Below the pieces are notes generated by a model, which did not search any database, was not told the origin of the DNA, and saw only the letters and a list, made by a program, of their open reading frames with translations. From Camellia lanceoleosa (lineage: Eukaryota > Streptophyta > Magnoliopsida > Ericales > Theaceae), in contig CM045761.1 of the NCBI GenBank assembly GCA_025200525.1, forward strand, positions 96,510,182-96,574,181: a DNA stretch of 64,000 bases. Direction: 5' to 3'. Made by a program: the position numbers and the translations under genes. This document shows, in pieces, positions 20,463 through 57,999 of this stretch (the first letter of the stretch is position 1; each line of letters opens with the position of its first letter).

Positions 20463-20467
20463 CTCAC

Positions 20468-22317: not shown

Positions 22318-22326
22318 AAAAGCCTG

Positions 22327-22368
22327 CTAGGTTGAAAACCCGAAAGGGCGGCCTAGGCAAAAGTTAGG
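22327..22368 (+). ncRNA. Conserved hairpin after pol (copy I)
   Basis: Outer stem CTAGG (22327-22331) with CCTAG (22352-22356); inner stem CCC (22339-22341) with GGG (22346-22348) closed by a GAAA tetraloop; single strand ttgaaaa on the 5' side. It is followed by aaaagttagggc. It starts ten bases after the pol stop. Two copies with compensatory changes lie at 57728 and 57923. A cis-acting RNA element is inferred. Confidence 0.65.
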
Positions 22369-22388
22369 GCAAAAAAAAAAAAAAAAGA

Positions 22389-22757
22389 GTCAAATACCAC
22401 CAACGGTATTGTATGTGGTTAAACTGCTAAAATATCCCATCGAAATCTAAGGTGGTAAAACATTGGATACTCCTGGTCCGCAAGAGTATAAACTGTATAT
22501 GGCCAAACAAAAGTCAAATACCCACCAACGGTATTGTATGTGGTTAAACTGCTAAAATATCTCACCGAAATCTAAGGTGGTAAAACATTGGATACTCCTA
22601 GCCCGCAAGAGTATAAACTGTGTACGGCCAACCAAAAGTCAAAAACCACCAACGGTATTGTATGTGGTTAAACTACTAAAATATCCCACCGAAATCTAAG
22701 GTGGTAAAACATTGGATACTCCTGGCCTGCAAGAGTATAAACTGTGAACGGCTAAAA
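22389..22757. repeat. Three ~124-bp tandem repeats after pol
   Basis: Units start at 22389, 22512 and 22638, each containing accaacggtattgtatgtgg, ctaaggtggtaaaacattgg and gcaagagtataaactgt. They differ at a handful of bases. They separate pol from the antisense gene. Confidence 0.85.
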
Positions 22758-22869
22758 TAAGAAAAATCAATTTATTGTATTGAGAAATTTCATATAACAA
22801 ATAAATCTATCACTGAGCGAAATTTCATAAATACATTATGTTCGGATGAATAACAAAATAAAAGTGCAT

Positions 22870-25800
22870 TCATTCATTAAGAGAAGCCTTAACCCTTTCA
22901 AAAGTACGTTCCACAACACTGTGTTGTCCATTCTTCTTCTTGTGTTGGCTCAAAACATTCAGAGCAATTTGCACGTCTTCTTCAAATTTAGAAACACTCT
23001 CGGAAGCTTGTGCAAAATCACACATAAAGGATGCATGTTCCGCTTGGGTGGATGACAATTCCTCTTCAAGTTGTTTGAGTAACTCTTTGGTTTGAATAAT
23101 CCTTTGATTAAGACCCGCAATGTGCTCATCTGACTTGATAATTGAAGCAGACAACTGTTCATGTTCACCAGAAACTTTGTCAAAATGAAGTTTCTTCTCA
23201 TAGTATTGGACCTCAAATTCTGCAGTAGACAAGTTTGAAGAATCTGCAAGTTGGGTTTTCAAAGCAAAGCACCTAAGAAATATCTTCACCTTCTCGTAAA
23301 ATGAGGTGAAGTCTACACCCAAACTCTTCAAAATCATGAAAACGTAGTTTGCTACAACAATCATGCCATTTACATCCGTCATTGATTAGAGAGAAATAGT
23401 AAGACCTTTCTGAATATGGGTAGTTGCTTCATTAGAGGAAGTTCCCAAAAGAAGGCTAGATGGAGCAAAGGGTGCTTCAAGTTTCTCAAATAATTTGTTA
23501 ACCCCATTTGCTTCAAGTAAGTCTACAAGAATTTGGGCCTCTTCCGAGGTATCAGAAGTAATTTCGTCTGTCTCTTCCAATGTGTCAGAAGTACTTTCTG
23601 TGAAAATAGAAGAGATACTCAATGAAAACATAGAAGGTAAAAACAATATATATATATATATATGAATGAAGTATACCTTGGTGTACAGCTTGAAGAGACT
23701 TAGGTGGAGGAGGAGACAAGTTGTGATTCCCATAAGTGGACCACGGATTTTGCAATGTAGCATGATCTAAAGAGAAAAGAGTTCCTTGAGCATGTATACA
23801 TGATGAAATAAAATGAGATACAAGGAATGAATAAGAATACCCTTAAAGGTAGCCAATGGCATATGCGATGCAGCTGGGGAAGTCCGAGGTGCAGTGCCTA
23901 AGAAAATGAGGTGTTAAAAAAAATAAAAATAAAATAAAGAAAGAATTATACCTTTCTCTAATAGCTTGGATGGCTTGTTCGAAGAAGGAGAAGAAAAACT
24001 TACATTTGCTGGGGACAATTTACTCATCTTAGTCGGTGTGCCATCTAAAAGAGGGGTGTGGTCATAAAACTCATCTTCACTCTCGCTACTTCCATTGAGA
24101 GAACAATCAAAAGATTTGGTAGGAGAAGGAATTTCAACACTCTTAATGCGAATACGACCCAAGGCAGTTAATTCATACCCATCTCCCTCAAAGAGTTCTT
24201 GAATCATATTCTCATCTTTATCTTCAAGAAAAGAGTACAAGTATGTGCGAAATTGATCCATTGGGGTTTTGGTCACTACGGTGGGTTGGGAAGTTCCTGT
24301 ACAATCACTGATAGACATAGTCTCTGGAAAAAGCTTTGCGAGACTAGAAAATTGAGGGCCAGAATCTACTTGCTCAAAGCTAAATCTCATTTTAAATTGA
24401 GAATCACACATATCCTCGAAAAGATGAAGTTGATCTGAAACCGAGTAACCAGATCGGGAAGGAGCAATAAGTGGTCGACTATTATCCATTCTCCGAGGTG
24501 ATAATGCTTCCAGAGCAATAGGTGAAGATGATGACCTAGCTCTAGAGTAAGAAGGATTCTTCATCTTTCGGTCTTTAATTGACATATCTAGTTTTCTCTT
24601 GTGTGAAGATTTCGGCTAGGTATGAGTAACATATTAGAGCACAGTAAAGGAAGTTCCCAACCACCAATTGGCATAAGGCATGGTTACGTGAGAAATAGAT
24701 CGGGTGCCTGGTAACTCCAATGAGACTTTTGTACCGCAACGTAACATATGGCGCCAGTTGTAATAAAATTTAGACCATTCAAAGGGCTATCAACAAAATA
24801 CATTAAGCGGTGTATGGCACGCTTGAGCAAACCCAAATTGACGACCGTATCGATTAGGGGAGTACGGTTCAGAAATTAAATTAAATCCCATTTTAAAAGT
24901 TAAAATCCCTTGCCTCAATGATATAAGATAGCCAAGGTGGAAAGGTGATATCCTTCCAGAGTTGACCAGAATGCCTGAAAGGTTCACCTTCATGGGTAAC
25001 AGCCCTAAACTGACACTCCATACAATAAGTTAGGAGAGAGTCCACAAATGGAAATTTATCAATAAAAAAGTGGGCAGCCGATTAGTTTCCAATAAATCCA
25101 AGATATGGCATGAAATGAATATCAGGAATCGGACAGATCGACTGAGGATCCCCATGAGAGTAAGTCTTAACAAAATATAGTGAAATCCATCCAAAAAGGT
25201 AATGCAAAGGACCTGAACATTTTCCTTCCCAGGTGAAGATGATGATGCCACTTTACCAAGAGAATGATAGAGGTACGCAAGGACAGGGATAGCCAAGCTA
25301 AATAAGGTTCCACCGGCCATTTTGGTGGCTACATGAAACGTAGTTGGACGAATTTCCCCAGAATAGTGAGGGAAGACAAATTCGCTAAGCCAGCTCGCCA
25401 AAAAACCAGAAAGATACACATCATCAGGGATTCTATCTTTTCGTTGAAACCACTAATCGAAGTTGGGGATTCGTCAATGAATTTGAAAGTCCAGTGGTTA
25501 AACTTCTTGGATTGAAAAGAGCTGGCATAAATGTTGAAAAGCCCATGGCACGCCTTGGATGTCTAGGACGAATATAAAATGTCATTGGAGGGGGTGAACT
25601 CTTCATAAAACTCGCCACGGATGGAGAGCCCGCTAATGCGATGAAGGTCCCATAAAGAGATCCCAAGTTCGCCGTAAATGGTGTGGAAAGTGTTGGTGTC
25701 GGGTGACCACCGCTCTAAGAATCCTTTCAGCAGGGAGACATTCCTAGCATAAGCAAATTGGGATACATAGATTGCAGCATAAATCCCACACTTCTTCAAA

Positions 25801-26210
25801 ATAGGGGCAAATGTGGAAAAAACGTCATTCAACCAAAAAATCCATATAGGGGATTGCAAATGGGTAAAAATGCCGCGGACATTAAAAGAATTATCCCACT
25901 TCAATTTTTCATGTTTTATTCTCTTAAGAAGAGTATTAAATTCAGAGCAGTCAAGGTCTTCAGAAAATGGACGGAGGATTGAGACAGGAAATGAACTGAT
26001 TGATTTGGAGTGTCCTTTCTCGAGAATCTCACAGCAGTTTCGAATTTTTGTATAGATCAAGTCTTCAGAAGTCGTATGTAAAGGGATATAGGGGTCCAAT
26101 TCGATAGATGACAATAAAGCAGTGATAGGTTTGTGCCGAATTATTTTTGGACCAGATTTATCCAATACATCCCTCTCGTCACGTCAAAGATATTCAAGTG
26201 TCTTTTCCAT
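22870..26210 (-). pseudogene. Antisense Plant Mobile Domain gene with introns
   Basis: Starts at ATG 26210 (MEKTLEY, then a TGA, then DERDVLDKSG). About 26140-24820 encodes a Plant Mobile Domain (PMD, aminotransferase-like): FLERWSPDTNTFHTIYGELG, FLASWLSEFVFP, TFHVATKMAGGTLFSLAIPV, EPYSPNRYGRQFGFAQ. A stop at 25563 and a likely 1-base deletion near 25430 break it. A Ser-rich linker (24585-23952) and a C-terminal coiled coil (23382-22870) follow. Introns with GT-AG ends are visible at 23951-23898, 23840-23767 and 23676-23598; stop at 23386. PMD proteins in plants act in genome/TE silencing and PMD copies are known to ride in Ty3/gypsy elements. Antisense placement protects introns from removal during retrotransposition. 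Confidence 0.75.
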
Positions 26211-26235
26211 GCTTCCTTAAATTAAAAAAAAAATG

Positions 26236-26487
26236 TCATAATATAAAGAAATTGACGAAAGCCCCTTGCCAAGGATTCAAGCCATTGGGGTGACAGACAC
26301 AATCACTGCCAAGGATTCAAGCCATTGGGGTGAAGGACACAATCACTGCCAAGGTTTCAAGCCATTGGGGTGACGGACACATTCACTACCAAGGTTTCAA
26401 GCCATTGGAGTGAAGGACACATTCACTGCCAAGGATTCAATCCATTGGGGTGAAGGACACAATCACTGCCAAGGATTCAAGCCACTT
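26236..26487 (-). promoter_or_regulatory. 40-bp repeat array with CCAAT boxes before antisense gene
   Basis: Five full 40-bp units plus a partial start at 26268, 26308, 26348, 26388, 26428 and 26468 (gccaaggattcaagccattg core). On the minus strand the full units each carry CCAATGG, so at least five CCAAT boxes face the antisense gene. A TATA-like ctttatattatg on the minus strand lies at about 26237-26248, 30-40 bases before the ATG at 26210. Promoter function is inferred from layout. Confidence 0.55.
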
Positions 26488-26519
26488 ATTGCCATTAGTC
26501 TAGGAGGGGCAATGATACC

Positions 26520-28870
26520 TGCAAACAAACTCTGACGCCTTTCGGGTTGCCTGTAAAAGAGGGAAAAAGACATGAAATAATCGTTAACCAAAAAAAAAAG
26601 AAGAGAAATTAGTCATCTTGATTCGTACAATTAAAATTCACTTGCACGAATCACGAAAGGGCAAGACTGATTCGACTTTTAACAAAAAAAAATTGGCCAA
26701 TTGTACAAAGGGCTGCTACTAATACAAAATAAAATAAAAGGTAGCAAGCTTAAAAAAAAAATTAAAAAAAAAAATTGTTCAAAAAACAAATCACAAAAAA
26801 AATCTGCTATACAACATAGCAACAAATAGGTTGCTGCTGTAAAAAAAATGGGATTGTATTTGAAAAAATTTGCTAAATAAATAGATAGTTTGTTCCCCAA
26901 ATGATAGGCAAAGCAACCTGTGTTGGTTGGTTCTATCAAAAGAATATAAAAAGTAAAAAATAAAAAAAAGAAAGAAAAAAATTCTTGCTATTTATAAATA
27001 AAAAAAAAAGGGCTCTTTTGTTTGTATAGGGCAAGGACTTTATTTGGGCTAGTTAAGTTCATGATCTAACAACAAAATATATAAGGGGCAGCAGCTAAAA
27101 GGGGTTGCCGTTTTTTTTTAGATGGTCTTTGTTTGTTAGAGTATTTGGGTCTACCAAAATGGGCTGCCTTTGTTGCCATCATATAAAAAAAAAGTCGGTT
27201 TGGTCTGATGACTAGCAGCAACAAGGAAAAAATAGGGCAGTAGCTAAAAAAAAGGGGCCACAGTTTTTTTTGTTTTAGGCTTGTTGTCTAGCAAAAATGG
27301 GCTCTCTTTATTTCTAGGCCATATTTGCTAATGGCAGCAGGTTATACACAAAGTTCATGGGTTATAAAAAAGGAGAAGAAAATTTCTACTGGAAGGTAAA
27401 AAAAAAGACCAGATTAAACTGTGAAAAAAAAAAGGTCCTTGGGCTCGAAAAAAAAAATGTGCTGGAAAGGCAGTAGGTTTTTTTGTTCAAGTAAAAAAAT
27501 AAAAATAATAAAATAATAAAAAGAAAAGAGGCTACAGCTTTTGTTATGAAATAAGGCAGTAGGTTATTCATCCTTTCAGTAAGGGTCTTTGTTGGGACTA
27601 TTTGAAAGAAAATATTTTATGGAGAAGAAAGCATACCTAATTTAAAGGAGTTTGAAGAGATTCTTTTGTGTCTTCTTTAATGTATAAGAAGAACAACTTT
27701 TGTTGAAAAAAAAAAAAAGAAAGATAATGGCTAGAAAGTTGCTGCTAGAAAGTTGTTGGAAAGATACTAAAACAATGAAGACCTAATATGCAAAGAAAAA
27801 AAGAGAGGCTGCTGGAACAATCTGCTGGGAGAAAAAAAAGCTACAGGAAAAATATATGGGCTGTATCTTTTGTATACTCAAAGAGAAATTGTTGCTGGAA
27901 AGATACTAAAATAATGAAAACCTAATATGCAACACAAAATCTGCAGAGAAAAAAAAGAGGTTGCTGGAAACAATCTGCTGGGAGGAAAAAAAAGTTACAG
28001 GGAAAATATGTGGGCTATATGCATGGATAGGTGTCATATAAGCAAAAATTATTGCTTAAGAAAGGAGGTAGTGTTCTCCTAAAATACTTCAAACAAGCAA
28101 GAGTTTAGGTAGGATTTGAAATACTAAGTAAGAGTTTGTGTAGGATTAGAAATCCTACCAGTGCCAATCTATCCTATTCCATTTAGACAAACTCCTAAAA
28201 TATATATATATATATATGCTGTAAAAAAATCCTAAAAATAATAAGTGGCAAGTTGGAGGCCCACAAAAGAAAAGGCCCAATTAAAAAATAATGGCCTAGA
28301 AAAGGAAAGGTCCATGATGGTCTAGAAAAATCCATGATGGCCTACAAAAAAAAAAATCTATTGTAAGAAAAAAAAAAATGGTGGCAAGTTGGAGGTCCAC
28401 AAAAGAAAAGGCCCAATTAAAAAAATGGTGGCCTAGAAAAAGGAAAGATCCATGATGGTCTAGAAAAATCCATGATGGCCTAGAAAAAAAACTACTATAA
28501 AAAAATGGTGGCAAGTTGGAAGCTCACAAAAAGAAATACCAAATTAAATCTTGGACCTTACTCATGACCCTTCAAAAAAAAAAAAAAAATCAAGTCCATA
28601 AAAAGGACCCATGCAACAAAAGTAAATGGCCCATGGACTATAAAGGGCAATTAGCCCTTTATTTTTTTTAAAAAAAAAAGATCAAGTCCACAAAAAGGAC
28701 CCATGTAACAAAAGTAAAAGGACCCATGAAAAAAAGAGCCGTCAACCCAAAAAAAAAAAAAGAGGCCAGGGACCAAAAGCAAAGAAATAATCCCATCTAA
28801 GACCTAAAGATCATCCAGGTAAAAGTGCCAAATTGTCGTGACTCACACAGTTCAAAAAATTCACTTCTGC
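26520..28870. repeat. A-rich low-complexity region of element 1
   Basis: About 2.3 kb made of A runs and short diverged duplications: ggaaagatactaaaa blocks near 27757 and 27895, ccatgatgg tct/cct blocks at 28311-28480, and caagtccataaaaaggaccc blocks at 28591 and 28683. ORFs here are low complexity. No gene recognised. It is presumably expendable 3' spacer that expanded by slippage. Confidence 0.7.
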
Positions 28871-28871
28871 A

Positions 28872-28887
28872 AGTCAAGAGGGGCATT
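28872..28887 (+). other. Polypurine tract of element 1
   Basis: caagaggggcatt lies directly before the 3' LTR start TGTTGGCAC; this is the expected site for plus-strand priming. Confidence 0.6.
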
Positions 28888-29703
28888 TGTTGGCACATAA
28901 ATTTCAACTAAATTTATGACATGTATAGAGCCTATGATAGGAAGGTTGTAGGTAATCACTCCCTAAAAAATGATCAATATGATCTGTTGAAGTACATAAA
29001 TAAAATGACGTTGTATCTCAACAATGTTATTCAAGATACTCAAATGAAACGTGGAGCCTACGAAAGATGACATCTGTAGAGCCTACAGCAAGGACACCAC
29101 ATAGGATGAAACCCCAAAGATCAATCCGGTTAATCAGATATACGATTAATCATATAGCATTATTATTCAAAATTCAAATGGTGCTATCATTCAATTTGAA
29201 ATTCAAATTGAAGATGAAGCATTCCTATCACCTGATGGCCCTCTATAAATATGAGAACCATCACACAAGACGGGGGATCAGAAAATCAGAAGTAAAAAGA
29301 TCAAAGAGAGAGAGAGAGAAAGAAATTGAGAGCTAAAGAAATTGTTACAAGAAAGAAGAAGAGAAGCCTAGAGAACTCAAGAGCCTACGCTAATGGCAAA
29401 GAATAGGTAAAGGGTTCCAAACCCAAGAATTGTATTTTGTATTTGAGGGTTCAAAACCCATAACAATTTCAATAAAATATTTATTTTTCTTAAATTGTCT
29501 TTTGTTGTTTATTTTGTTCTTCATTAATCAGAGGTTTCATTTGTATAAAATGTGTAATTAACAATCTGAAATACAGATCGGAAATAAGAACCTGCTATTC
29601 AAATAATCAAACATTGTTTAGTCTAAAAACTAAACAATGGACATTTGTAACATAAATTTTGAAATGTGTTGAAACACTTCATGTTTTAAAATTTGTGTCT
29701 ATA
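28888..29703 (+). repeat. 3' LTR of element 1
   Basis: TGTTGGCAC start and TGTCTATA end (the last bases differ from the 5' copy's TCTACA by a C to T change). Contains TATA box 29244-29251. Followed by GTGAC, the right target duplicate. Confidence 0.9.
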
Positions 29704-29802
29704 GTGACCATCAATAATTTATGTTTCTATAATGGTTGTCATTGATCAACTCTAAGACTATTAAGTCAAAAAATAAATAAGAGCCCTTTTTCTGATATCA
29801 AT
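29704..29802 (-). pseudogene. Start of the split copia gag, with primer site
   Basis: Read leftwards: a tRNA-Met-type primer site (ttgatatcaga, complementary positions 29792-29801) directly follows the LTR; ATG is at 29742-29740, and the first ~13 codons (MTTIIET, stop, IIDGH) run to 29704. The frame continues exactly at 7442, where SNPPYFTG-type copia gag sequence follows, once element 1 and one target duplicate are removed. Confidence 0.75.
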
Positions 29803-30734
29803 TGTTATCCTAGGTAGGCAACCCAGAGAGGGATGAATTGAGTTTCTAAATAAATTTCCAAATTAAAAATATTAACCCAAATAAAAAATAAATAAAACTG
29901 CTCAACAATATAAAATAGAGTATTAAAATAAAATGAGCAAAGGAAAGAGAAAGCAAACTCAACGATTTATAGTGGTTCGGTATGCCGGGCCTACGTCCAC
30001 TCTCCAAGTATCCTCTAGAATTTCTCCATTATTCTTCAAATACTAATTACACCACTAGTATCAGGGGTGCTAGTGAACCTTTACAACAAATAACCAATCA
30101 CGATCACTCTAACTAGTTTAGAATCTAGTACTTAGTCACACCTAACCTAAGTGATTTTATCCCAAAAATCACTCACAAAAATATCCATACTAATTTTGAA
30201 TCCAGTGCCTAGTCTCACCTAACCCAAGTGATTTTATCCCGAAAAATCACTCATACAAACTTTCTCTTTTACAAGAATGATATGAAGGGTGTGAAAACCC
30301 TTCTACAATTTTTGTTCAAATTCTCAACAAATTTTCTCATGGAAAACACAACTCAATGAAGCACAATAATATTTTGAGAACAAGTAAATATTACAGATTT
30401 TTCCTTTTCTTCTCTTCTTCACTTCATTATTTTTCTCCAACCAAAATACTTCTATTTATACCTAAAAATATATCTGTTGGAAGACAAACGATTCTTTAGA
30501 TCATGAGGCGACCGAGCGCAAGACGCTCTTCTATTTGACTTTGTATCACGTGGGCACACGGAGAAGACACACGCCAGCTTGAAATTAATGTGTCGCTTTT
30601 GATGAATAGTGTTCTATTAATTTTTTCTCCCCACACTTTATGAATTTCAAATGTTACACAGTAACTTGAATAGTAATTTTTCTATTAAAAAATATATAAT
30701 GCACAGTAAAATTTATTTAAATAATATTTATAAC
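29803..30734 (-). repeat. LTR of the copia element
   Basis: On the plus strand it starts TGTTATCC, adjoining the primer site. Includes the gatttatagtggttcgg motif common in plant copia LTRs. The outer edge is uncertain; ttataaca at about 30727-30734 would complete the inverted ends. No target duplicate was found. Confidence 0.6.
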
Positions 30735-30889
30735 AAATACATCGTACAACATATATTTTAATAAATAATATTTTGTGTCAAAGAATATAAAATATGTATA
30801 TTAAAAAATCACAATTTGTCTCATAATATTTTAGACATCATCAAAATTAAACCACATGATTAACAGTGGTAATTTGAGAGTTATGGGTT

Positions 30890-32151
30890 TGATTTGGATT
30901 GGTTTTAGGAGCATAAAATAGGGGTTTTCAAATAGGTTCATAGGAAATGTTGTGGAGATGGTTATATTGATAGATTGGGTTGAAATATTGAAAATCTCTC
31001 CATTAAATATGCTTTTAAAAGGAATAGATATTTTGTTGGAAATCTTGAAAATGATTGGTTTTGAACTAAGCAAAAAGAGAAAGATATAGAGCTTTTGAAA
31101 TGATAATATGAATATATCTGTTGATGATAAGAGTGAAGTTGAATATGTATTATCACTCCTATATTGGGATTATGAAATTATATCTGTTGCTTGGAGATTT
31201 ATTCTTTGTACAGAGATATCTGTTTTAGGCTATCGATGGAGGATAATTTTGATTGTTGTAAAAATTGTATGAAGATTAGGTTAATTGAAACCAATTACTC
31301 ATGCATCTTGCATTGAATATTGTTTCATATTTATATATTGAAAATATATCATTTTGAGAAAAATTAGTGAATACCTTGATGAATCTAGTTAGGGTGTGTG
31401 ATTGTGGTGTTATCTATATTGGCTTGTGTATCCTTGGTGAAAGTCCAAAAACTCGCACAGTTAAGTTCTGATCCTTCCGGTTAATACCAGTAAAATGGCT
31501 TTGGTAGTGCATGTATAGCCTACTAGCAGACACGTACCTAGAGATTCCAATATTGTGTGTCTACTACCCTGCTTTCTTATTTAAAAAATATTGTTTTACA
31601 AATTGATTTATAATCATGGCATTGCATCATGTTGAAAGAAAAAAGCATAACGTTTTGGTAAATGGCATTCATATGCATTCACCATATGATTTTGTTAAGT
31701 TTCATACAGTGTGTTAAGGTATTTTTTACTAGGTTTTAGCTCATCCTATGTGGAAACCAACTTTCAAGTATTAATGGTATGCCTCCACCAAGGACTTAGC
31801 TAGAGAAGATCTTGGAGTTTAAGGCTCATTCATTTTTGTATTGTAAATATCTTTTGTACAAGCCTCAAGATTTTATTTGTTTTGGGCTTGACCAATTTTT
31901 GTGGTAACCAAGCATCGTCTTGGAAATATGTAGTCATTAAGGTATGAACTTATTTGTATTTTTTTTCATTTCTATATATCACTATATGTCACATGCTATA
32001 TATTCAGAATTTAGGGTTTATGAATGTATAACGCACGTGACACCTTTTGTAATGTTTTCAAGAGAATTAATGAAAGACTGAACCTTTTTATTTTTCACAT
32101 ATTTAGTGTACCTTATGGGATTAACTGTTGTTATATTTTGGGGGCGTTACA
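30890..32151 (+). mobile_element. Truncated chromovirus-type LTR (copy A)
   Basis: Ends GGGGGCGTTACA at 32151. From about 30890 it parallels the LTR at 32960-38063 (shared blocks ggataattttgattgttgt, cctactagcagacacgtacc, ggttttagctcatcctatg). The left part, including the expected CTCGAG array, is missing. 30735-30889 is plain AT-rich sequence. Confidence 0.75.
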
Positions 32152-32408
32152 TACTCTATTTACCTTCTTCAATGTCAAAAAATCTAAATAACCCCTGAGA
32201 TATTGATTCGTGATTATATATAATGATTCTAGTTTAGACCAGCCTCGTTGCTTGTTTTGGATTTGATATTCATTGTCTTAAATGGTTATTCATACCTTTA
32301 TACATCCTAGTCTTGATTGAGTTAGGTTATTTGGATGTCATTGTTGCGTTTGGAACAAGTTCGAAGTTCATTTTTCAAAGGAGATTTTGCCTAGATTTTG
32401 GTCATTTC

Positions 32409-32670
32409 GCTCGAGAAATCCTTTGGTCGCTCGAGCAGTTTTTGAGAACTTCCAGTATATTTGCAGGTTTGCAGAAGTATGGGGAGGGTAGTGTTTTTAG
32501 CTCGAGTGATGTTTCTTGTGCTCGAGCAGTCCTTTTTGTGCTCAAGTGGTTAGTCTCTATCTGCAAAACTTCTGGGAGGGTGTCATTGTGCGCTCGAGCG
32601 GTAACTTTGTTCACTCGAGCAGTCTCACTTATTGTGTTCGGTCGCTCAAACGGTGTTTTGGTTGCTCTAG
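32409..32670. promoter_or_regulatory. Diverged CTCGAG array, 20-bp phased
   Basis: CTCGAG cores at about 32411, 32431, 32501, 32521, 32593 and 32614, and decayed sites ctcaag 32541, ctcaaa and ctctag near 32646/32666. Most neighbours are 20 or 21 bases apart, as in the array at 3361-3627 in a different LTR. Most losses are single-base changes. Confidence 0.6.
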
Positions 32671-38066: not shown

Positions 38067-38078
38067 TGGTATCAAAGC
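38067..38078 (+). other. tRNA-Met primer-binding site
   Basis: TGGTATCAAAGC, three bases after the LTR end; the canonical form is TGGTATCAGAGC. Confidence 0.8.
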
Positions 38079-43300: not shown

Positions 43301-43349
43301 GCGCCCTTCATCTTTGCCTTGTCTTCCATACCGTTTCAGTATCCACTTT

Positions 43350-45518: not shown

Positions 45519-45981
45519 GTATTTTGTTTTTGTGCCCGTGTCACTCATCTCACTATGCATGTTAAAACTTAATCAAGCGTTGGTACTTATTTTATTGGTT
45601 TATCATTAGTGTAGAGTGGGTTCTTTAGCTAGTTTCTTAGTTTTCCAACAAGGATTATCCAAAATTTGATCAAACATCATTCTACTTAGTTCTTTAGTTT
45701 TATTTATCTAATCAGTTTACTTCTTCCAAACGCTGCATAGTTTATTTGATTTGTGTGATGAATGAACATTGGCTATTTCAGTAAGTTTCTTTCTTAGTTG
45801 ATGCCATATGCATTTACTGGTTGTCTAGCAGCAATCATACTTCTTCTATTAACAAACCATCCGTTTGTCAAATGATGCCTAAAATTATTCAATGCTCATA
45901 TGGAAGCTTCGATTACATGACCTGAACTCATTATTTATTTTCTTTGGAAGGTGAGGGCTACATCAGTTACTTGTTTTGCAG

Positions 45982-47566: not shown

Positions 47567-47889
47567 GGGGTTGATATGTTTGGCAAGCGTGTTGGCTTTT
47601 TTAAGTTCAATGCAGATGTGATTGATAAGGCAACAGGAAAAAAGGTATTTCATCAGCCAGATGGTTTCTTCCTTTGGATTTATTTCATTAAGCATCTTAG
47701 TGTTTTGCATCTGAATTTAGATCATGCCCTAGTTCTTTTTTTTGAAATTTTAATTTTTACGTTCTTTCTTTCTACAACTAAAGTTAAACATGCTCAAGTT
47801 CCAGGTATTGTGTTTGCACGTGGGCAGCAATAGCTGTGCTGATCCTTTTAGAGTTAGATGACAAGACGTATGTTGTGCTTATTGAGCAA
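47567..47889 (+). pseudogene. NUDT14: Fragment of a NUDT14-like ADP-sugar diphosphatase gene
   Basis: Two exons. 47567-47644 encodes GVDMFGKRVGFFKFNADVI then DKATGKK and ends at a GT donor. 47798-47889 encodes VPGIVFARG, and after a one-base deletion near 47830, IAVLILLELDDKTYVVLIEQ, ending at a GT donor. These match my recollection of the Nudix hydrolase 14 (ADP-sugar pyrophosphatase) region before the Nudix box. The acceptor before 47798 reads AA instead of AG. The Nudix box and all other exons are missing, so it is a dead fragment. Confidence 0.65.
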
Positions 47890-48054
47890 GTACTGTGTTT
47901 TTGTCTATACATGTATTTTATTTTATATTCTTGATGAAGTATTAGAATTCTTAAAATAAGTATAATTGTTAGTTAATGAGTTAGATAGCAATTCTTAATG
48001 AAGAGTTGCTAAACTTTAGTAAACTTTAGCAATTCTATCATTGAATATAAATAC

Positions 48055-50431
48055 TATAGCGATCCCGATTTTCCCTTCATTTTTTTTTAATTGTATTCCG
48101 AACTCGGTTCCGTAGATGTGTTGTTGTCTTATTCCCGTTTCCATCCTTTACTCTTTGTATATATACAATGTATAGAAGACTAATGCTAATACATTGAATG
48201 TGATGGATTTATTATGAATGAATCTTAGAGATGCATTATGTATCTATTATGAATATGTAAGATACATTAATTTATATAATGAATTCATTAATATAGAGGA
48301 TGCATTATGTATCATGAATGTATGAGATACATTAATCAATTTAATGAAGTTCATTGAATGAATAACTTGAGAGTTTCTCTCTTTAGACTATATCTTCTCT
48401 CTATAAATACATCTAGTTCTAGTGATCTTCTACCCTAGTTCCTTTGTATTGAGTGTGGAGCTTCCCTTGATCTTCATTTTGATCCGAAAAATTGTAGATT
48501 GGAACACATCCGAGTATTTTCATCTTCTTCATTTGGTCTCTCCATTTGAGGTAGGGATTTCTTTGTTTCTTTTCAATGCTCCGTCTATAGATAGACATGT
48601 GGTAATTTTGTATTGCATGAAAATCATATCCATGTTGGATTTGTTTGAAAATCATGAGGGGAACCTGGGGTTGGTTATTTGAGAATGGTTTTGTTATCAT
48701 TGACTGTGGTTTGGACTAATTAGAGAGTAAAATTAGCATGTTATTGTTGAAAGAAGAGAAAGCCCTAAATTATATTTTGATTTGGTAAAATAAAAAGGGT
48801 TTATGGTTGAACAATGTTGGTAAATTTCTATTATTAATATGAGTTGTGTAGAAGGTGTTAACAGTTAAGGGATTAATTATGGTATTGGGGTTATTTTGAA
48901 ATGAACGTATTGAATCAAGTTGGGTTATGGCTTATTATCCATGGAATTGATTTTGTAAAATGAAGAGAATGTAATTGGTTTTGTGAAAAGGGAAAAGTGT
49001 TTTTGGAATAAGTGATGGAACATGTTGACTTAAGAAAATTATGAAAGTTGATCTTGAAAATGGTAAATGGAATGTTAACTCTATGTGAGTCTCGGAAAAT
49101 AAATTTGAGAATTAAACTATTGTATCATGAGTGTTGAATACACACATTTGGGGGTTTTATCCTTACCTATCGTACTAGTGTTGTTGTGGGGTTTAAGGTT
49201 TGCTTGAGAGTTGAGTCTGTCTTATTAGGTGTACTGAATATATGCATCTAGAGGTTTTGTCCTTGGTCATCGGTGGAGGATGACATTGTTGTGTTGAATT
49301 GTGATGTATGCGTTACACATTGTTTGTGTCCTGATGGTTTATGTGTTTGTTTTACACATGTTGGTTATGGCTTGTGGTATTGTGGTTGTTGGTGTGATAT
49401 CTTGCGCTGATAATCAGAGGTACCGTTACCTTCCAGCTAGCGCCTGGAGAACTGTATGCGCTGATAATCTAAGGTACCACACCCTTCCAGCTAGCGCTTG
49501 GTAAAATGGTATGTTGTTGTGAGAAGTGTATTCTTTGGCTTACTACGCACCTAGCTAGTAGAACAAAGTTTTGTTATTATTGTTTCAGTGTATCTGGGAA
49601 CATTGTGGATTGTGTTGGTTACAGTTTTGGAGGGCCGAGTTGCCTCATTGGTTTATCTTATGCATGTGGTTGAGTTGTTATCTCCCTTTATAAAGGTATG
49701 CATATATAGTTATGATAGATTTGGGATTGAACCGAAATGGCTTTTGTCTTTTGGAAGTGTAAAGAAAATCAAACATTTTAGAAATATGTTTTGAAAAGGC
49801 ACATCTGTTGTATGTGTGGAAAATGGAAGATAGTAATGGGCTTAGTGAATCTATTTTCTTAAGTAATTGTTAATGTTATAAAAGATTGGAACGGGGGTTA
49901 ATGACAAGAAAAAAGAAAGATGAATCGCTTATAGCGTTGAATGAAATAGTTGTTTTCGAGAAAAGTTTATATATATATATATTTCTTGTGTAAACTGTCA
50001 CATTATTATTTTAGTACGAGAATGAGTGTTTATGATCATAGCTATCTGTAATGTTGATATTGTTGAGGATCATGTTCAGATCTCTACTGGACTATATGTT
50101 CATCCCACGTTGTTGAATCTTTTTCAGGTGATAGCCAGGATGTGCTACAAGGTTTTGGATCTTCTTATTTGTTGGCCACGGGGCCTCTTTTGTGTTGGCG
50201 GAATGCCATTTATGTAAAAGGGTTATACCCTTCTTCTTGACTTTTAATGATGTAAGCCCAAGGGCAATTTATTTAGTGTACTCATGTTGTATTTACTTGC
50301 ATACGAATGAGAGCAATGTTATTCACTTCTACGAGCTGAATATACGAGTTTATTTCCGCATGTTATCTCTGAAATGGAATTAAGTAAATGAAATTGGTAA
50401 TACTTCGAGTAATAAAAATTGGGGCGTGACA
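48055..50431 (+). mobile_element. Solo LTR, 2.4 kb
   Basis: Starts TATAGCGATCCCG (TG to TA at the first dinucleotide) and ends GGGGCGTGACA, with a perfect target duplicate AATAC (48050-48054 and 50432-50436). Contains a ~54-bp direct repeat at 49404-49502 (gcgctgataatc ... ccagctagcgc). No internal sequence. Confidence 0.8.
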
Positions 50432-50436
50432 AATAC

Positions 50437-50864
50437 GATTAACAAAGAATACCATGAATATCATAGAAATCGGACACATTGAGTGGCCACCGTGAACCTA
50501 CAAATTATGAGACCAATGAGAATCCATATACACCACCACCAGATGATGCGAAAAACTTTCAAACACCTTGAAAACTCATCGTTTGTGAAAACTTGTCATT
50601 TAGTAAATTGTTTTCCAAACCAATTAACTCAATAAAATGGTCAAATGGCGTCGAATATCAACAAAACTTGACATACATGATGAACTAGGCACAAATGACT
50701 TATAGGAGAAAAAGAGACTTGAAACCAATTCTCAATTTTGAATCTAGAGCTTAATTTTCGTTTATGAAAACTTCTTCTTTACAAACTTTTTTTCCGAACC
50801 GGTTGACTCACTAAAATGGTCAAACGGGTTCAGATGTCAACGAAACTTGACGCACACAACATGC
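50437..50864. repeat. Satellite-like ~179-bp repeat, two units
   Basis: The block gtttgtgaaaact ... ccaattaactcaataaaatgg ... caacaaaacttgacataca (50581-50675) recurs as gtttatgaaaact ... ggttgactcactaaaatgg ... caacgaaacttgacgcaca at 50760-50856. Offset is about 179 bases. The gag-only element inserted at its right end. Confidence 0.65.
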
Positions 50865-53800
50865 TGTAGACACCCCATTTTTGACCGCCCTCAAGACTTG
50901 GGCATTACTGATGGTTTGCTCGGTGTTGAGAGATGTGCAGGCCAAAGATTCAATTTCTTCGGCAAGGAGAGAGGCAAACCCTTCAAAACACTTTGTTTAG
51001 GGGTTTGGAGTTGAAGAAAAGAGGAGAGGAGGAGAGAAAATAGGTTGGAGAAGAAGTTCGCCATGAATCCGGGTAGGAGAGAATCGAGCAGCCCTCGCTG
51101 AATCGGGCTTATTCAATTGCATACTTGGAGTTAAGCTATGAGGCCACCATCGTTGGAAAGAAGACTTCCGGGGCTTCACTTTGTACTCAAGAATCTCCCA
51201 AAGCCAAGTCCGGGTGGAGGAGATATGATTGGTTGAAGCTGGGTATCATCCCGGTTGGATCGAGTCTGCGCGGCTTCACGAAAAAGGGCATAACTTTTTG
51301 CACAGGAGGAATTTTGATGCAAGGTTTGCGCCATTGGAAAGCTAACTTCCGGGGCTTCGATTTGCATACCCACCGGCCATTTTTTGACCAAGGAATCATC
51401 CATCGGCACTCTATTTAGCCGACCGGCAGAAAAGAGTGCCGACCGGCACTTTATTTTGGACAATGATCGAATCTTCTGGCCGGTTTGAACCCTTTGCACC
51501 CCCCAAGCTTGGTGCATACCAAATGCCAGCTGGGATGCACAGAACTCGACCCACGTGCATCCATGTGCCCATTTTGCACCCTTTAACCCCATTTTTTGGA
51601 CCCTTTGCTCATGGCTTCTTGAGGAAGCCTTGACCCCTTGTCTTGGCTTCCTCAAGAAGCCTTACCAGCTGTCCAAGCTTCCCTTACAAGCCTTGCACCC
51701 CCTTGACCCTTTTTCTTTAACTTAGCCTCTAAGTTTAGTACTTATACTTGCCTATATAAGCACCTCTCCTCTCCCTTGAGCAAGGGTTGGAGATTTCTAA
51801 GCAAAAACCAGGTTATAGATATATATATATCTAACATATATATCTATAACCATATATCTCTCCCATCCAACCTCAAAAGTCCATTGTTCTTGAGCCATTC
51901 CTTCACCACCACCTAGCACCACCACCACCACTCCATTTCCAACGACTTGGGGGACATTTGCAGAGCTTAGGAGCACCTAAACTTGGATCAAAACCTGCTG
52001 GTTCATTGGTCTACAAGGGTAAGTGTCTATTTCCCCCAAACTAGCATTTTCTTGCATCATTTCTTAGCTCTAGTTGCTTGCACATTTGGGCTCCGACCCA
52101 AACTTCAAATAGTCTTATTTTGGGGTCCTCTTCATGTTTGATTGAGGACCCCTTGCTGTTTGGTGATTGCATCTAGCACCTATCTCTTTACCCCCTTGTA
52201 TGCCACTATTCTTGCATAGTATATTTGGCTGATGTGTGATCTGATTCAGAGCATGATGTAAGCTAAGAATAGGCTTATTTTGAGCCCTTCTTCAACATTG
52301 TTGAAGGGCTCAACATTGTTTGGATGATCCTTATGCTACTCGCTTTGAAATCCTTGTTTTAGCCTCATTTTTGCATGGTTTGTTAGCCTTGTATGCTTAC
52401 TGATTTTGGGGCTGTCTTATACTGAAAATGTGCTTATATTTGGGCTGTCTAGCTTCTGTCTATTCATACCATGTTCATATAATGCATGTTTAGCATAGCT
52501 ATAGGCCATTTCGGAGGCCTAGTTTTGCATTTCGGGAGTGATTCCATGCATCGGGTGTCATTTCGCCTTGTTTCGGGGCTGTTTTGCCCCTTATTTAACT
52601 ACTGAAATTTGTATGTGTTGCATGCCATGCTTGTTGGTTTAGGTTGTGTGCCTAATACATGTTGCATGTTTGCATACTTGCCTTTATGCTCATATTGCAT
52701 ACTTAGCTCACATGTTTAGGTTGCATTTGGCATGCATACCTTGCCTCTTGAATCACCATGATAGAGGTTGGGCCTCTTGTTTGTTTGTGCTTGCATTCCA
52801 TTCCATTGAAAGTTGCTAACTTGGCTTTCGGGCCATCATGCATTGAAATGCGGGATTGATGGCCCGGGGGTCGAGGGCCATGCTCCCTTGAGTCTATTAC
52901 ATGATAGGGAGTGTGTCCGCATACATTTGTCCCAAAATTCCAATGCCATGCTCTGCCGTCATTCTGTCACAAACTGCTCTCCTAGAATTTAGCGCCGACC
53001 AAGCACTCTTTAGTGCCGACCGCAATCTTTTTTGTGCCGATAACTATCAATTGCAAATGTGGTCAAACCCCGCAAGTGTCAAACCCTCCAAACCGGTGGT
53101 GATCTTGAGAATATGTGGAAGGCTTCCCAGACTTTGGCAATTTTGGAGACAGGCAAAGGCAAAACAGAGGCAACAAAGTGGACATCGAGCATGCATCATT
53201 CACAAGATCCGAGGCGACGGGTCAGGCCCCTTTTATTTCACACTTATTTATTCAGTAATTAGAATTTGTAATATTTATTCATTTATTTTGGGACTGTATT
53301 ATTATTTTGGTCCCTCAGAGCGAGGGCAAAATTGTAATAAGTGTGTGTGAGTGGGTGTATGTCTTCCAATCCCCATTTCTTTCTCCCTTTTATTTACCTG
53401 CTTATGTTGGTAGATTAGGGCACATTTAAATCAGCATACCTTATGCAATGCATGTGTGCATTCATGCATTTGTTTACATGCATTCGGGCTCGGTACATCA
53501 TACAAACTGCATCGTACTTTCAATTCCAAATTGAATACGTGATAGTTGTTGCATCTCATGTGCCATATTTAGGGTTAGCCGAGCCTACTCTAGATTACAT
53601 CTCTGCGTGTGATGCATTAGCCACTTAACATGAACTAGGTCATGCATGTTTGCTAACTAGTTTACTGTTTTGGCAGTCTGATGTAAGTTTTATGGCTTTA
53701 GCATATCGCATGCGTGTGAATGTTTACCATGACAGTATGCTTGCCATGCGGCTAAGTGCTTACATGATAAGCTGTTTGAATGCCTGTGGGTGGAGGTTGG

Positions 53801-54313
53801 ATTGCTTGAGTTGGAACAACTCATTGAAATCCGCATTTTAGCCTACTTGCAAGTAGCAAAAGAAAACAACACGTTTTTCGAGACAAAACGGATATGCAAT
53901 GTTTATTTCCAAGTTAGGCAATCTAGTCTATACTTTTGTGTTGTGTGCATCACATAGTAACTCTAGGCTAAACAATTGGGATAAGAACATGTAATGTTTT
54001 CAAAACGGATATCACGGTTAGTAGAGGCGGTCTTGGACGGGCGAAAGAGGTGCTCATAAATGACCTTCCCGATCGTACCAAGCTCGAGCCAAGACCACTT
54101 TGGTGATGGCGGACATGTGGCCTTCGACCGAGTCGTGGTTTCCTAAATTTCCCATTTTAAAATATTTAGGTGGCGACTCAGTCTGGCAAAGCAATCCATG
54201 TTTGGCACTACTTTTCAAAAACTGCTTTTCAAACGATTTGCGGATTTGGACTCTTTGGTTCAGAACTTTTACATCGAGTCCGAATCAGAGCGAAGCCCAC
54301 GGGCGCGTCTACA
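50865..54313 (+). repeat. 5' LTR of gag-only element (3.4 kb)
   Basis: TGTAGACACCCC start, GCGTCTACA end. Related antisense copies are the solo LTRs at 15768 and 33603 and the fragment at 1. Contains the inverted repeat gtgccgaccggcac at 51440-51453. Confidence 0.9.
51753..51760 (+). promoter_or_regulatory. TATA box in 5' LTR
   Basis: TATATAAG followed by a CT-rich stretch; conserved in the 3' LTR at about 62789-62796. The R region and a long U5 (>2.4 kb) would follow. Confidence 0.65.
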
Positions 54314-54318
54314 GTTTC

Positions 54319-54336
54319 TGGCGACTCTGCTGGGGA
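54319..54336 (+). other. tRNA-Arg-type primer-binding site
   Basis: TGGCGACTCTGCTGGGGA starts five bases after the LTR end. It resembles the tRNA-Arg sites known from Ogre elements. Confidence 0.75.
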
Positions 54337-55346
54337 TATAGAGAGCTTGACTCAAACTCGTGATATCCTGTTTTGACTACACTTATGTGTTTCTTTGCAT
54401 TGCATGTGCATTGGTGCGCCTAGGACACCGTGTTGGCCATCTGCTATTCTGGCGGTTTGCGAGGCTTGTCTTGTCAAGGCATGACCATAAGGTCGACCGG
54501 TTATGGCTCGCCAAGATGGGAACACAAACCCCGGTTTTACCGGGGCACCCTTTTCGACCATTCGACCTAGTGCATATTCGGAATCCATAGTGACCATTCC
54601 AAACTAGGACAGGTTGCTTACCCGATATAGGTTGTTTGAAACCGCTGTGTGCGTAGTGAAACCCTAGCTCCTGACAAAATAGGACAGGGAAACCCTACCC
54701 CCAACATAGGGGTGTTTTGGCTCTTTCTACTTGCTATGTGCTTTTAGAGTGTATCTCTACAGGAATGCACATACCAGTTTGCAAGTCTGGGTATCAGGCC
54801 TGAGGGCACCAGTATCAGTGTTTTGAGAATCAGTTATATCTGCGGGTATCAGATTCAGATTTGGGACAGTGATTTCGAACAAAGGATGATCAAATAGAAT
54901 ACTATTCATTGACTTTGCTCATATCCATTCCAGTGAAATTGGGCTGAGATGCTGTCTGTTTTCTCTTTTGCTAGGGTAGTCCCGGAATCATAGCTTCAGA
55001 AGGCTCCGATATCCCTCGGGTACATTGGACTAGTGCTGATAGACTTTGTTAGGTCAGAGATTCAGCTCAAGGGCAATAAATGTTCCTTTGCTAGAGGTAG
55101 AGTAAAAAAAGGGCCAGTTAGGCACGGATCACCAATTCAAATAGCTACGATCAAGGACCTTATCTACCGTGATTGGACGATCGGGCGAGGTCTCGCTTTT
55201 ATCATAAGGATAGATATACCGCATACCGATGGATCAACAGAATCACGCTGGGTGGAGGCAATGATGCGCCGATGCAGAAACTATGAAACTCATGCAAGCA
55301 AGGCGTGTCCCATAAGCGGAATTCTCCAAGCAAAGAAGTCAGAATC
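54337..55346 (+). other. Untranslated leader of gag-only element
   Basis: No domain recognised. The ORF at 55033-55380 (tctaccgtgattgg region) has no family match I know and overlaps the gag start, so it is more likely leader than gene. Confidence 0.45.
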
Positions 55347-56574
55347 ATGGCTCAAGAGTCAACTCATCACCAGTCAATAAAGAAAGCGACGCTGGCTTCA
55401 CAACAAGTTCCTCCCCAAGAGGAGCTCCAAAGACTGGGAGACGCCAAATGTTCAGAAGGTACAGACATTCCAGAGGGCCTCGCCCCCAATTTTACCCAGC
55501 TTATCAAAAACACCCACCAACCTACCGGACTCTCCTTTGAGTTCGAGACGGATCCCACAAAGATCAAGTTGAGCAAGCTTGAAAAGCTATTCAAGAGATC
55601 CCAGGGAGTCAAGACCATCCCTGACATTGAAGATGGATACACGGACACAGCTGTGACATTGCCAGACAGGTTCAAGATGCCTCACATCGACCGTTTTGAC
55701 GGGTCAGGAGATCCCATGGTCCACCTGAGTTTGTTTTCAGATGTTCTGCGCCCGATGGGCTTGACAAGATTACAGAAGCTCTCCCTCTTTAGCAGGACCT
55801 GCCGAGTACCGCGCCATCCTGCACGCCAAATTAGAGGACTCTGAAACGAAGCCGAGGAGATGTCCGAGGCCTTCGCCGCACAATATCCATACAATACCCA
55901 GATCGAGATCACAACCCGTGATCTGGAGACAACCAGGCAAGAGCTGAAAGAGGGCTTCTCTGACTTTGTAACCCGTTGGAGAGCCAAAGCTTCTTCGATG
56001 ACCACCAGGCCGGTCGACAAGGACCAGATACGGATGATTGTGCGCAATCTCCAACCCAGGCTGATGCAGAAGATGATTGTCCTCCCCCTACCCACCTTTG
56101 CAGACCTCCATGAGATTGGGGCACAAATCGAGGATGCTATAAAGGTGGCCTCATTGACCAGAGAAGGAGCACCAGAGGGTGTTTACCCGATTCAATGTGA
56201 CCACCAGTGGTGATGCAACTGCAAGACCTTCTGAAGTGGGCATGGTCACCAACACCACATCACAAAAAGCTACCTCATTCACCGGTGCGTCCGGAAGTAG
56301 CTCACAGAAAACCAAATATCCACCTCGAGTCAAGAGGGTTTTCACCCCACTTCATATGCCTTTGTCAAAGGCTCTAGAGTTCTTAATCCGGAAAGGACAT
56401 CTGAAACCATTGGAACAACAGCCTTTACCTGATCCTCTCCCTCCAAAACATGACCGAACTAAGTACTGCGCGTACCATCAACAAACCGGTCATGAGACCG
56501 ATAGCTGCTTTCGTCTGCGCCATGATGTACAAGATTTGTTTGACAACAACATCATCACCGCACCAGCTCAGTAA
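55347..56574 (+). pseudogene. gag: Degenerate gag of the gag-only element
   Basis: ATG at 55347 (MAQESTHHQ). Frame 1 to 55844 carries a linker and the start of Retrotrans_gag (PHIDRFDGSGDPMVHLSLF, MGLTRLQKLSLF). A short deletion and frameshift near 55795-55860 remove the central capsid motif (GAAxxWY type). Frame 2, 55860-56213, continues the capsid end (MSEAFAAQYPYN, DFVTRWRAKAS, QIRMIVRNLQPRLMQKMIV). Another frameshift near 56180 leads to 56179-56574 with a knuckle variant YCAYHQQTGHETDSCFRL. Ends at TAA 56572. So it is unlikely to make a working Gag. Confidence 0.85.
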
Positions 56575-57727
56575 GGTCTATCGTCACTGGGTCAGTGAAC
56601 TTGGGGGATAATACGATATGATCAGGGGATGAACCACCTGCGAGCAACACTCAGTTTACTCCAGATGTGGCGTTCGACATGCACTGTTTTGAGCAATGTA
56701 CAAATGCTGTTAATTTTGCTTTCTGACTTGGGTATTGGGTCAGTTTTGTTATGTCGCTTTGAGTCTGTCTCCTTATTTTGAGTCAGTCTTTTTATTTCAG
56801 GTCTGTCTTGTTGTATCGAGTCAGTCCTGTTTTGTTGAAGTCAGGTGATTCCGGGAATGTTACCTCGGATATCACTATCTTGTTTTTGTGTTTGTCTTTT
56901 TGCTTTCTTTTGAGTCTGTTTCTGCCAGGGAGCCAGTTACACCAACAAATTTGAATGAGCAGCAGTGATTTTCACACTCTTGTGTTTGCTTCTGCCGTGT
57001 GCCAGTTGTGCCGGAAATTCTAAATAAGATGGCAGTATTTGACTAAGAACTCTGTCTTTTCTGTGCCTTGAAGTCATTGCATTGACCTAAGTTTTTCAAA
57101 ACTTTTTCAAACACTGTGGTGAAAACGAAGAGGAAGGAATTCCTTGGGATTTGCAAAAATTTGATCAATTGAGAAAAAGAGAGGCGTGCTAAGCCCTTAA
57201 TGAATGAAATCATGCTTGTTAGTGTGAGTACTGGGAAGGACCCTAGCTTTGATCCAGATTGGTTCTCAGATCTTTTTCCATGAGCGATTTGTCGCTTTCA
57301 GAAAACTTTCAAAAAAAAAATGTTTTGCGCGGTCCTGCGAAGACATGTGTGGAATCGCTCTTGAGATTGTGCAGCCTAGGATCGCTCTCAGCCTCGAGAC
57401 TCAACCCCTCATTTTCGAACCTTGGATTCAAACTCAAAATGTTCAACGGTTAACTACAACGTGAGGCCTGTGAGACCAGATTTGAAGCAACCCTCGAACA
57501 AGAGGCACCAAAGTCAGATCAAGAAGGTTAGACCTCATCAGAAGAAGCTTGCAAAGCTAGAACAGCAGTACCCTTCGAACTAGGGGCAAAAATGTCAGAC
57601 GTGCCCGAAGAGCTGAAGATGAGTCCTCTTGCGAATCGACAGCCACTCTCCTGGATACGAATGGCATCAAAACCCTAAAAAACACTTGGCATGGACAAAG
57701 CTACACTTTTACCCTTTGAGAGGCTCG
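56575..57727 (+). other. No gene recognised downstream of gag
   Basis: Protease, RT and integrase motifs are absent where pol would be expected. 56745-56840 is repetitive (gagtcagtctt/ttgtt variants). Confidence 0.6.
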
Positions 57728-57770
57728 CTGGGTCGAAAACCCAGAAGGGCGACCCAGGCAAAAGTTAGAG
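57728..57770 (+). ncRNA. Conserved hairpin (copy II)
   Basis: Outer stem CTGGG (57728-57732) with CCCAG (57753-57757); inner CCC (57740-57742) with GGG (57747-57749), loop agaa; then ggcaaaagttagagc. Same geometry as copy I at 22327. Confidence 0.65.
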
Positions 57771-57773
57771 CAA

Positions 57774-57920
57774 AGAAAAATACAAAAAAAATGCAAAAAA
57801 AGAGAAAAGAAAAAAAAGAAGAATGCAAAAAAAAGAAAAGAAAAGACAAGATGAAAAAAAAAAAGAAGAAGAAAAAGGAAAGAAAAGAATAGAAAAAAGA
57901 AAAGAAAGAAGAACAAAGCT
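57774..57920. repeat. A/G-rich low-complexity tract
   Basis: Almost pure A and G (gaaaagaaaaaaaagaag-type). It lies exactly between hairpin copies II and III. The Lys/Glu ORF over it is a by-product. Confidence 0.8.
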
Positions 57921-57922
57921 CG

Positions 57923-57965
57923 CAAGGTCGAAAACCTGCAATAGGCGCCTTGGCAAAAGTTAGAG
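57923..57965 (+). ncRNA. Conserved hairpin (copy III)
   Basis: Outer stem CAAGG (57923-57927) with CCTTG (57948-57952); inner CCT (57935-57937) with AGG (57943-57945); then ggcaaaagttagagc. Both stems keep pairing although bases differ from copies I and II. Confidence 0.65.
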
Positions 57966-57999
57966 CATAAAAAGGAGAGGTTAAATACCCGAGTGTACC

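Follow-up and report, generated by a model that had tools for sequence, protein, structure and literature searches.

Near the 3' end of their unspliced RNA, several retroviruses carry structured elements that act in cis, in one or two copies and without a viral protein. Rous sarcoma virus (RSV) is reported to have two copies of a hairpin direct repeat (DR) for export, flanking src, and avian leukosis virus (ALV) a single one in its 3' untranslated region (UTR) (PMC9143442); the constitutive transport element (CTE) of Mason-Pfizer monkey virus (MPMV) is given as 162 bp (PMC11379458). The RSV stability element (RSE) lies immediately past the gag stop codon (PMC5580461); a very long 3' UTR follows, and the RSE is described as CU-rich, with a length of 155 nt (minimal) to 400 nt. 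Here we consider a 49-nt hairpin that occurs three times (copies I, II and III) in a stretch of 64,000 nt from the plant Camellia lanceoleosa (assembly GCA_025200525.1, contig CM045761.1, positions 96,510,182 to 96,574,181 of the forward strand; "the window" in what follows): once just past the pol gene of a long terminal repeat (LTR) retrotransposon, element 1, and twice in a second element without detectable pol (Table 1).

Like the MPMV CTE and the RSV and ALV direct repeats, the hairpin is a candidate cis-acting structure near the 3' end of an unspliced RNA, and it likewise lies downstream of the last sense open reading frame (ORF) in at least one copy, here one to three copies after pol, in both of the pol-bearing families (A and B) described below. 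The likeness is one of analogy, with no sequence relation claimed, and the two differ in size (49 nt as against the 162 bp reported for the MPMV CTE) and in the plant host. With the RSE it shares the place directly downstream of a stop codon and ahead of a very long 3' UTR, but it is purine-rich, short, situated after pol rather than gag, repeated, and kept in an element that lacks pol. Element 1 in turn resembles the Retand/Tat retrotransposons of a 2025 survey in the great distance from its pol to its 3' LTR, in its antisense ORFs and in its tandem array; the main text of that survey does not contain the words "hairpin", "stem" or "secondary structure" (PMC11963269). Our literature search, which covered subscription journals thinly, found no description of such an element, and for short motif strings it returned unrelated papers only. 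Cis-acting retroelement RNA is a known kind; the present architecture and place appear to be new. Structured RNA is also found in plant transposon transcripts in the form of the element for nuclear expression (ENE), a U-rich internal loop flanked by stems that forms a triple helix with poly(A). Copy I is likewise trailed by an A-rich tract, but identity with an ENE was rejected, since the hairpin has no U-rich internal loop and the longest run of U in each of the three copies is two.

To our knowledge, it is not settled how plant LTR retrotransposons with very long RNAs and multi-kilobase 3' UTRs bring their full-length RNA out of the nucleus and keep it from decay. An element of only 49 nt with thousands of copies in one genome is small enough to be cloned, broken, re-paired and used as bait for a partner, and its size makes this question directly testable; the hairpin also provides a marker by which Tat-like families, along with derivatives that are non-autonomous, can be classified.

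Architecture of the hairpin and its place after pol

The three copies all lie on the + strand, which is the sense strand of pol, and have long constant blocks in common in a 57-column alignment. An earlier note, made from the sequence alone, had described them as a two-stem fold with a 7-nt bulge on the 5' side. A covariance-model search of the window finds exactly these three (E 1.8e-24, 5.8e-22 and 1.1e-20; next match E 0.34), with a model that includes relatives identical or nearly identical to the window copies, and both the coordinates and the stems given in the note are confirmed. What had been missed is an outer 4-bp stem, found in the lowest-energy fold of all three copies, which enlarges each of them to 49 nt and makes of it a three-stem hairpin. 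Part of the supposed bulge is in fact helical. Among the 94 distinct copies analysed below, columns 12 and 13 form pairs with the junction in 87 and 90 respectively, which leaves a bulge of AAAA, while a third extension pair (the next outward) holds in 57 of 70 copies and is broken, as C.A, in class B1. In the predicted fold the unpaired strands would be AAAA and GCAAAAGUUA. The start reported by the note, at the tenth base past the pol stop, is correct for the middle stem; the outer stem starts after 4 bases. Searches of the window with Rfam gave no match, five hits around copy I all lying far below the gathering scores, and a search for tRNAs found none.

Relatives were sought in the genome from which the window comes (3.0 Gb, 790 contigs). 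A pattern of 31 places that counts the five-base-loop form alone has 3786 exact matches, as against 0 for the reversed control. With the integrase of element 1 (P0001) as query we obtained 121 matches (119 scored of 86586 candidates), and 50 of the 121, the 30 best plus 20 chosen among the rest and mainly divergent, were submitted to a position test with a threshold score of 50, shuffled flanks reaching at most 23. In 45 of these 50 loci there is a hairpin no more than 160 nt from the integrase end, which bears out the fixed place downstream of pol that the note had proposed as a check; the best match is exactly 4 nt past the stop in 32 loci, 2 nt past it in one and 67-109 nt past it in 12. 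The five loci missed are the four of family C, discussed below, and L021, whose hairpin is truncated (score 46, covariance-model E 1.1e-10). Past their pol stop the family C loci (L039-L042) have a short common stretch, GCTC...GAGC (outer-stem letters around a 10-nt loop), which may be due to chance or may be a reduced form.

Family A, to whose hairpin class copy I belongs, has one hairpin in 26 loci, two in 17 and three in 3 (46 loci, of two lengths). In six of its loci (L011, L012, L017, L054-L056) tandem hairpins stand 63-102 nt apart with A-rich linkers between them, an arrangement suggestive either of recurrent selection on copy number or of slippage during replication. Eight further loci (L001-L008) were cut around matches to the five-base-loop pattern, which is of the hairpin-2 type. 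In seven of the eight (L001-L007, family B) an integrase relative ends at a hairpin 1 that is followed by hairpin 2; a TGA stands exactly 3 nt before hairpin 1 in five of these seven and the triplet is changed in the other two. L008, which belongs to the pol-less type, is without an integrase. Family B is large and young, since all 137 integrase relatives scored (of 83668 candidates) are at least 92% identical to the query. Copy III was found in all 30 pol-less loci that were chosen by copy II from 40 matches, one of them (L063) being the window's own. The hairpin therefore occurs in the long-diverged families A and B of retrotransposons, as well as in a pol-less derivative. Because the pol-bearing family B carries the same hairpin pair as the pol-less element, copies II and III do not count as independent of elements with pol simply through the loss of pol. 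Viral contigs, searched with the hairpin patterns and the integrase, and prokaryote genome contigs, searched with the integrase, held no relatives, nor did a protein database searched with the translation of a family B 3' UTR frame.

Conservation, pairing and reading frames

Over about the last 100 residues of the integrase, families A and B are 47% identical in amino acids and 32% identical at third codon positions, i.e. near saturation, whereas their hairpins, in a comparison of 4 A with 3 B copies, are 83% identical, and over the next 30 nt or so downstream the identity drops. When the pol-less element is compared with four family B copies, the hairpins have identities of 0.84-0.90 as against about 0.3-0.55 upstream; the linker is unalignable, and for the block that comes after copy III the value is as high as 0.91. 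Among 31 pol-less copies, hairpin III (0.933) and the block that follows it (0.967) are the conservation maxima over 2.1 kb, with 0.578 for the linker and 0.78-0.85 for the flanks. The level of hairpin III is matched by 50 of 1922 comparison windows outside the query, and the top five of these start at 57984-58009. The value for hairpin II (0.974) is not independent, since this hairpin lies inside the query that picked the copies.

Pairing was analysed in rows found by the letters of the bulge and tail, a procedure blind to pairing. This letter search covered the window and 88 loci. Among the matches listed there are 687 rows, of which 135 score 9-12 of the 12 pairs (one of them background, at 9) and 552 score 0-8, mostly background along with some decayed copies with indels; L002 and L003 hold four such decayed copies, scoring 6-8. 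The covariation set itself comprised 150 rows, from which 53 duplicates and 3 background rows were removed to leave the 94 distinct copies, and five hairpin classes were compared, namely A, B1, B2 and, from the pol-less family, the first and the second hairpin as a class each. In the outer and middle stems, 95.6% of 846 cells are paired, as against at most 66.8% with slid-partner controls; 79 cells are changed on both sides (29.7 in shuffles), and the covariation score of 0.337 (0.192 in shuffles) is reached by none of 500 shuffles. At the class level, the commonest pair is a standard one in all 60 cells (12 pairs, five classes), and compensatory changes between classes are present in all three stems (P1.3, C-G/U-A; P2.2, U-A/A-U; P2.3, A-U/G-C; P3.3, C-G/U-A). 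The third inner pair of hairpin III in the pol-less family is U.G (10), U-A (10) or C-G (4), and so is paired in all 24 distinct copies. A model (R2) was trained on family A alone, with 34 of its 39 distinct rows; the other five, which have indels or a shifted register, were excluded. For copies II and III, both held out, it gave scores of 62.3 and 49.0 bits, as against 36.4 and 25.1 bits for the sequence-only model R3. The structure gain of 25.9 and 23.9 bits, as compared with 15.5 for copy I of the training class (83.6 vs 68.1), implies that pairing has been kept where the sequence has changed.

A coding role was rejected for the GAAA-loop class of family A, as every frame of the hairpin contains a stop in 49 of its 57 copies; in the other classes one or two frames are open in most copies. 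The pol frame meets a TGA inside the hairpin in copy I and a TAG in the B1 copies, and loop and junction lengths vary among copies, which shifts the frame. In 20 of the 31 pol-less copies one frame with at least 60 codons upstream enters copy II; it holds residues resembling the end of the integrase and is probably a relic of pol.

Export, protection and other candidate roles

In view of these comparisons, the proposal of the earlier note that the hairpin is a selected cis-acting RNA element is well supported: by its place after pol, by the identity of the hairpin set against that of third codon positions, by the conservation peaks of the pol-less family, by pairing kept in classes that the model never saw and by the closed frames of family A. 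Since it persists under apparent constraint in the pol-less family, it would seem to serve the RNA rather than pol. As regards its role, we tentatively prefer a site for a host factor in the export or protection of the full-length RNA, a possibility that we place a little short of even chances and for which the retroviral elements are an analogy. The 49-nt sequence would fold into the three-stem hairpin and work as RNA; its constant unpaired strands (the AAAA bulge and the GCAAAAGTTA strand) would be read by a host protein rather than by Gag; and this binding would bring about nuclear export and stability of the unspliced RNA in the manner of the CTE or the RSV direct repeat. A conserved host reader may be likelier than Gag because the hairpin is common to elements whose gags do not detectably match, although this argument for the host reader is a weak one. 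A broader version is doubtful: a plant constitutive export element, that is, a modular, host-bound 49-nt hairpin standing in tandem after pol in Tat-type elements across flowering plants, lost in some lineages and kept by pol-less parasites.

Several results weigh against the export or protection reading, and some against selection on the RNA in general. Family C has no covariance-model match after its integrase in any of its four loci, and yet this integrase is slightly nearer to that of element 1 (53%) than the family B integrase is (47%). The absence of the motif from related elements had been named in the earlier note as evidence against its proposal, as had uncompensated drift of the stems, and the latter is also seen in part, 4.4% of the outer- and middle-stem cells being unpaired in single copies. 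In number, neither the doubly changed pairs (4; 439 of 500 shuffles) nor the further pair types (13; 337 of 500) exceed the shuffles. The co-variation that the note had claimed stands as compensatory changes between classes, but these amount to about four class-level substitutions, and so to few independent events, and inside family A alone there is no excess over shuffles (117 of 500), as expected for mutations in dead copies. Folding energy is mostly unremarkable, being exceptional for copy II alone (z-scores of -0.97, -3.15 and -0.29 for copies I, II and III, and -0.89, -0.72, 0.19 and -0.64 for four other copies); thermodynamic stability was accordingly rejected as evidence, and the case rests on conservation and covariation. 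The relatives of the hairpin come from one genome, and exchange of 3' regions between families may inflate their apparent age. The argument concerning Gag draws on the gags of element 1 and of the pol-less element, the latter weakly identified. Finally, a stop triplet stands 3 nt before copy II in all 31 pol-less copies (29 TGA, 2 TAA; it lies inside the query that selected them), which leaves room for a stop-linked function. Taken together, this kept triplet and the weak gag shift the odds slightly away from export and towards a shield against nonsense-mediated decay (NMD).

In such a shield the hairpin past the pol stop would guard a transcript with a 3' untranslated region of 6.6 kb, much as the RSE does after gag. 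We consider this unlikely, if by no means negligible. It would suit the spacing of 3-4 nt between stop and hairpin in families A and B, the distance of about 6.6 kb from the pol stop to the 3' LTR, and the stop kept before copy II, at which an open frame of 64-88 codons ends in 5 of the 31 pol-less copies; however, the frame that ends there is 15 codons or fewer in 17 of the 31. Apart from the RSE (PMC5580461), a precedent is found in PMC6277124, where an NMD-sensitive reporter was stabilised in N. benthamiana by a structured readthrough element placed just past a stop, but in the same study a 2-nt change making a stable hairpin after the stop of turnip crinkle virus (TCV) abolished resistance. 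Moreover, the possible gag pieces of the window copy end about 1.15 kb upstream and yet hairpin III is conserved, and the hairpin is not CU-rich, unlike the RSE.

Packaging, in which the Gag of the element would bind the hairpin so that genomic RNA enters particles, and the pol-less element would be packaged by a helper, is in our opinion distinctly unlikely. The tandem copies and the retention of copy III in the 30 pol-less loci would be in keeping with it, but a signal read by Gag is expected to follow its Gag, whereas this hairpin is kept between elements without a detectable gag match (the pol-less gag being weakly identified) and lies after pol instead of in the leader. The loops (GAAA, AGAA, GCAAN) contain no palindromes that would suggest kissing-loop dimerisation.

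That there is no RNA function at all, and that a short conserved tract has been spread by recombination (template switching) with pairing as a by-product, strikes us as very unlikely. A tract common to A and B and missing from family C, together with covariation no greater than chance in family A, could be read in this way; against it, the hairpins of A and B1 are 17% different, some of the differences being paired changes of the outer stem, so that any exchange must be old, three paired double changes in the outer and middle stems separate the classes, and hairpin III is near the conservation maximum of the pol-less family. Some plant-virus translation enhancers also lie at the start of the 3' UTR, but a cap-independent enhancer pairing with the 5' end is most improbable here, as the differing loops provide no single conserved pairing loop (no search for a 5' partner was made). 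Finally, stimulation of stop-codon readthrough, whose structures sit at a similar 3-4 nt spacing from the stop, or coding by the hairpin itself, for which the open frames of the non-GAAA classes and the frame entering copy II might be cited, can hardly be credited in the face of the stops within the hairpin and its shifting frame.

The retrotransposons of the window

Table 1. Window coordinates of the hairpin copies and of the elements that carry them
Feature	Position	Strand	Remarks
5' LTR, element 1	7447..8242	+	93.5% identical to 28887-29701
pol 3' end, element 1 (integrase, P0001)	21301..22317	+	rve E 9.7e-10; TAA stop 22315-22317
Hairpin copy I (class A)	22322..22370	+	4 nt past pol stop; covariance model and folding; stems: outer GCCT/GGGC, middle CTAGG/CCTAG plus extension, inner CCC/GGG; AAAA bulge; GAAA loop; 3' strand GCAAAAGTTA
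Tandem array, period 124, three copies	22381..22756	+	directly after copy I and its A tract
3' LTR, element 1	28887..29701	+	about 6.6 kb from pol stop
5' LTR, pol-less element	50868..52954	+	98.8% identical to 61903-63990
Possible gag, pol-less element	55287..56571	+	three open pieces, with a stop and frame change between; 3' end about 1.15 kb upstream of copy II
Hairpin copy II (first hairpin, pol-less element)	57723..57771	+	covariance model and folding; stems GCTC/GAGC, CTGGG/CCCAG, CCC/GGG; loop AGAA
A/G-rich linker, copies II to III	57772..57917	+	low conservation (mean pairwise identity 0.578)
Hairpin copy III (second hairpin, pol-less element)	57918..57966	+	covariance model and folding; stems GCTC/GAGC, CAAGG/CCTTG, CCT/AGG; loop GCAAT
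Third conserved block after copy III	58011..58047	+	predicted hairpin CTACGTA...TACGTAG
3' LTR, pol-less element	61903..63990	+	at window end

Element 1 encodes gag, reverse transcriptase (RT), RNase H and integrase, and it has antisense ORFs between pol and the 3' LTR. These domains, the long region before the 3' LTR, the antisense ORFs and the tandem array are Tat/Retand features. The antisense TRP28 domain is absent from the three antisense ORFs tested (E <= 0.01), and for this reason we have called the element Tat-like, judging by domains and layout rather than by an RT tree, and have not filed it as Retand.

The earlier note had taken the second element for a gag-only one that lost pol and kept two hairpins. 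The loss of pol agrees with our searches of its interior, in which RT, RNase H and two integrases find nothing at E <= 1. Its gag is less secure: the matches of its middle piece to Retrotrans_gag (E 0.039) and Gag_p24_C (E 0.025) fall short of the cut-off, and the other two pieces have no Pfam match. The gag of element 1 finds nothing in this interior at E <= 1, and a separate comparison gave one match of 26 residues (E 0.015).

A few further observations concern the interior of element 1. One of the antisense ORFs between its pol and 3' LTR (25563-26165, - strand) has a plant mobile domain (PMD, PF10536; E 1.5e-12). The RT frame is separated from that of RNase H by about 5.4 kb (about 15250-20600), probably through an insertion, parts of which match 53287-54264 in inverted orientation at 78-82% identity. 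Upstream of gag, the segment 9998-10336 resembles that gag (32-38% amino-acid identity, E 7e-16 and 2e-14) and is possibly a partial duplication of it.

As for the 3' region of the pol-less element, the predicted hairpin of the third conserved block has the stem CTACG...CGTAG plus an inner stem. The sequence of this block recurs at 61721-61756, some 150 nt ahead of the 3' LTR, with a different lowest-energy fold there, and a relative of it follows hairpin 2 in family B (L090, L001). Somewhat further downstream, at 58203-58310, there are three short repeats of the GGGGCAACTTTCCGTTGCC type with a self-complementary GGCAAC/GTTGCC, and these are also found in family B 3' UTRs (L001, L090).

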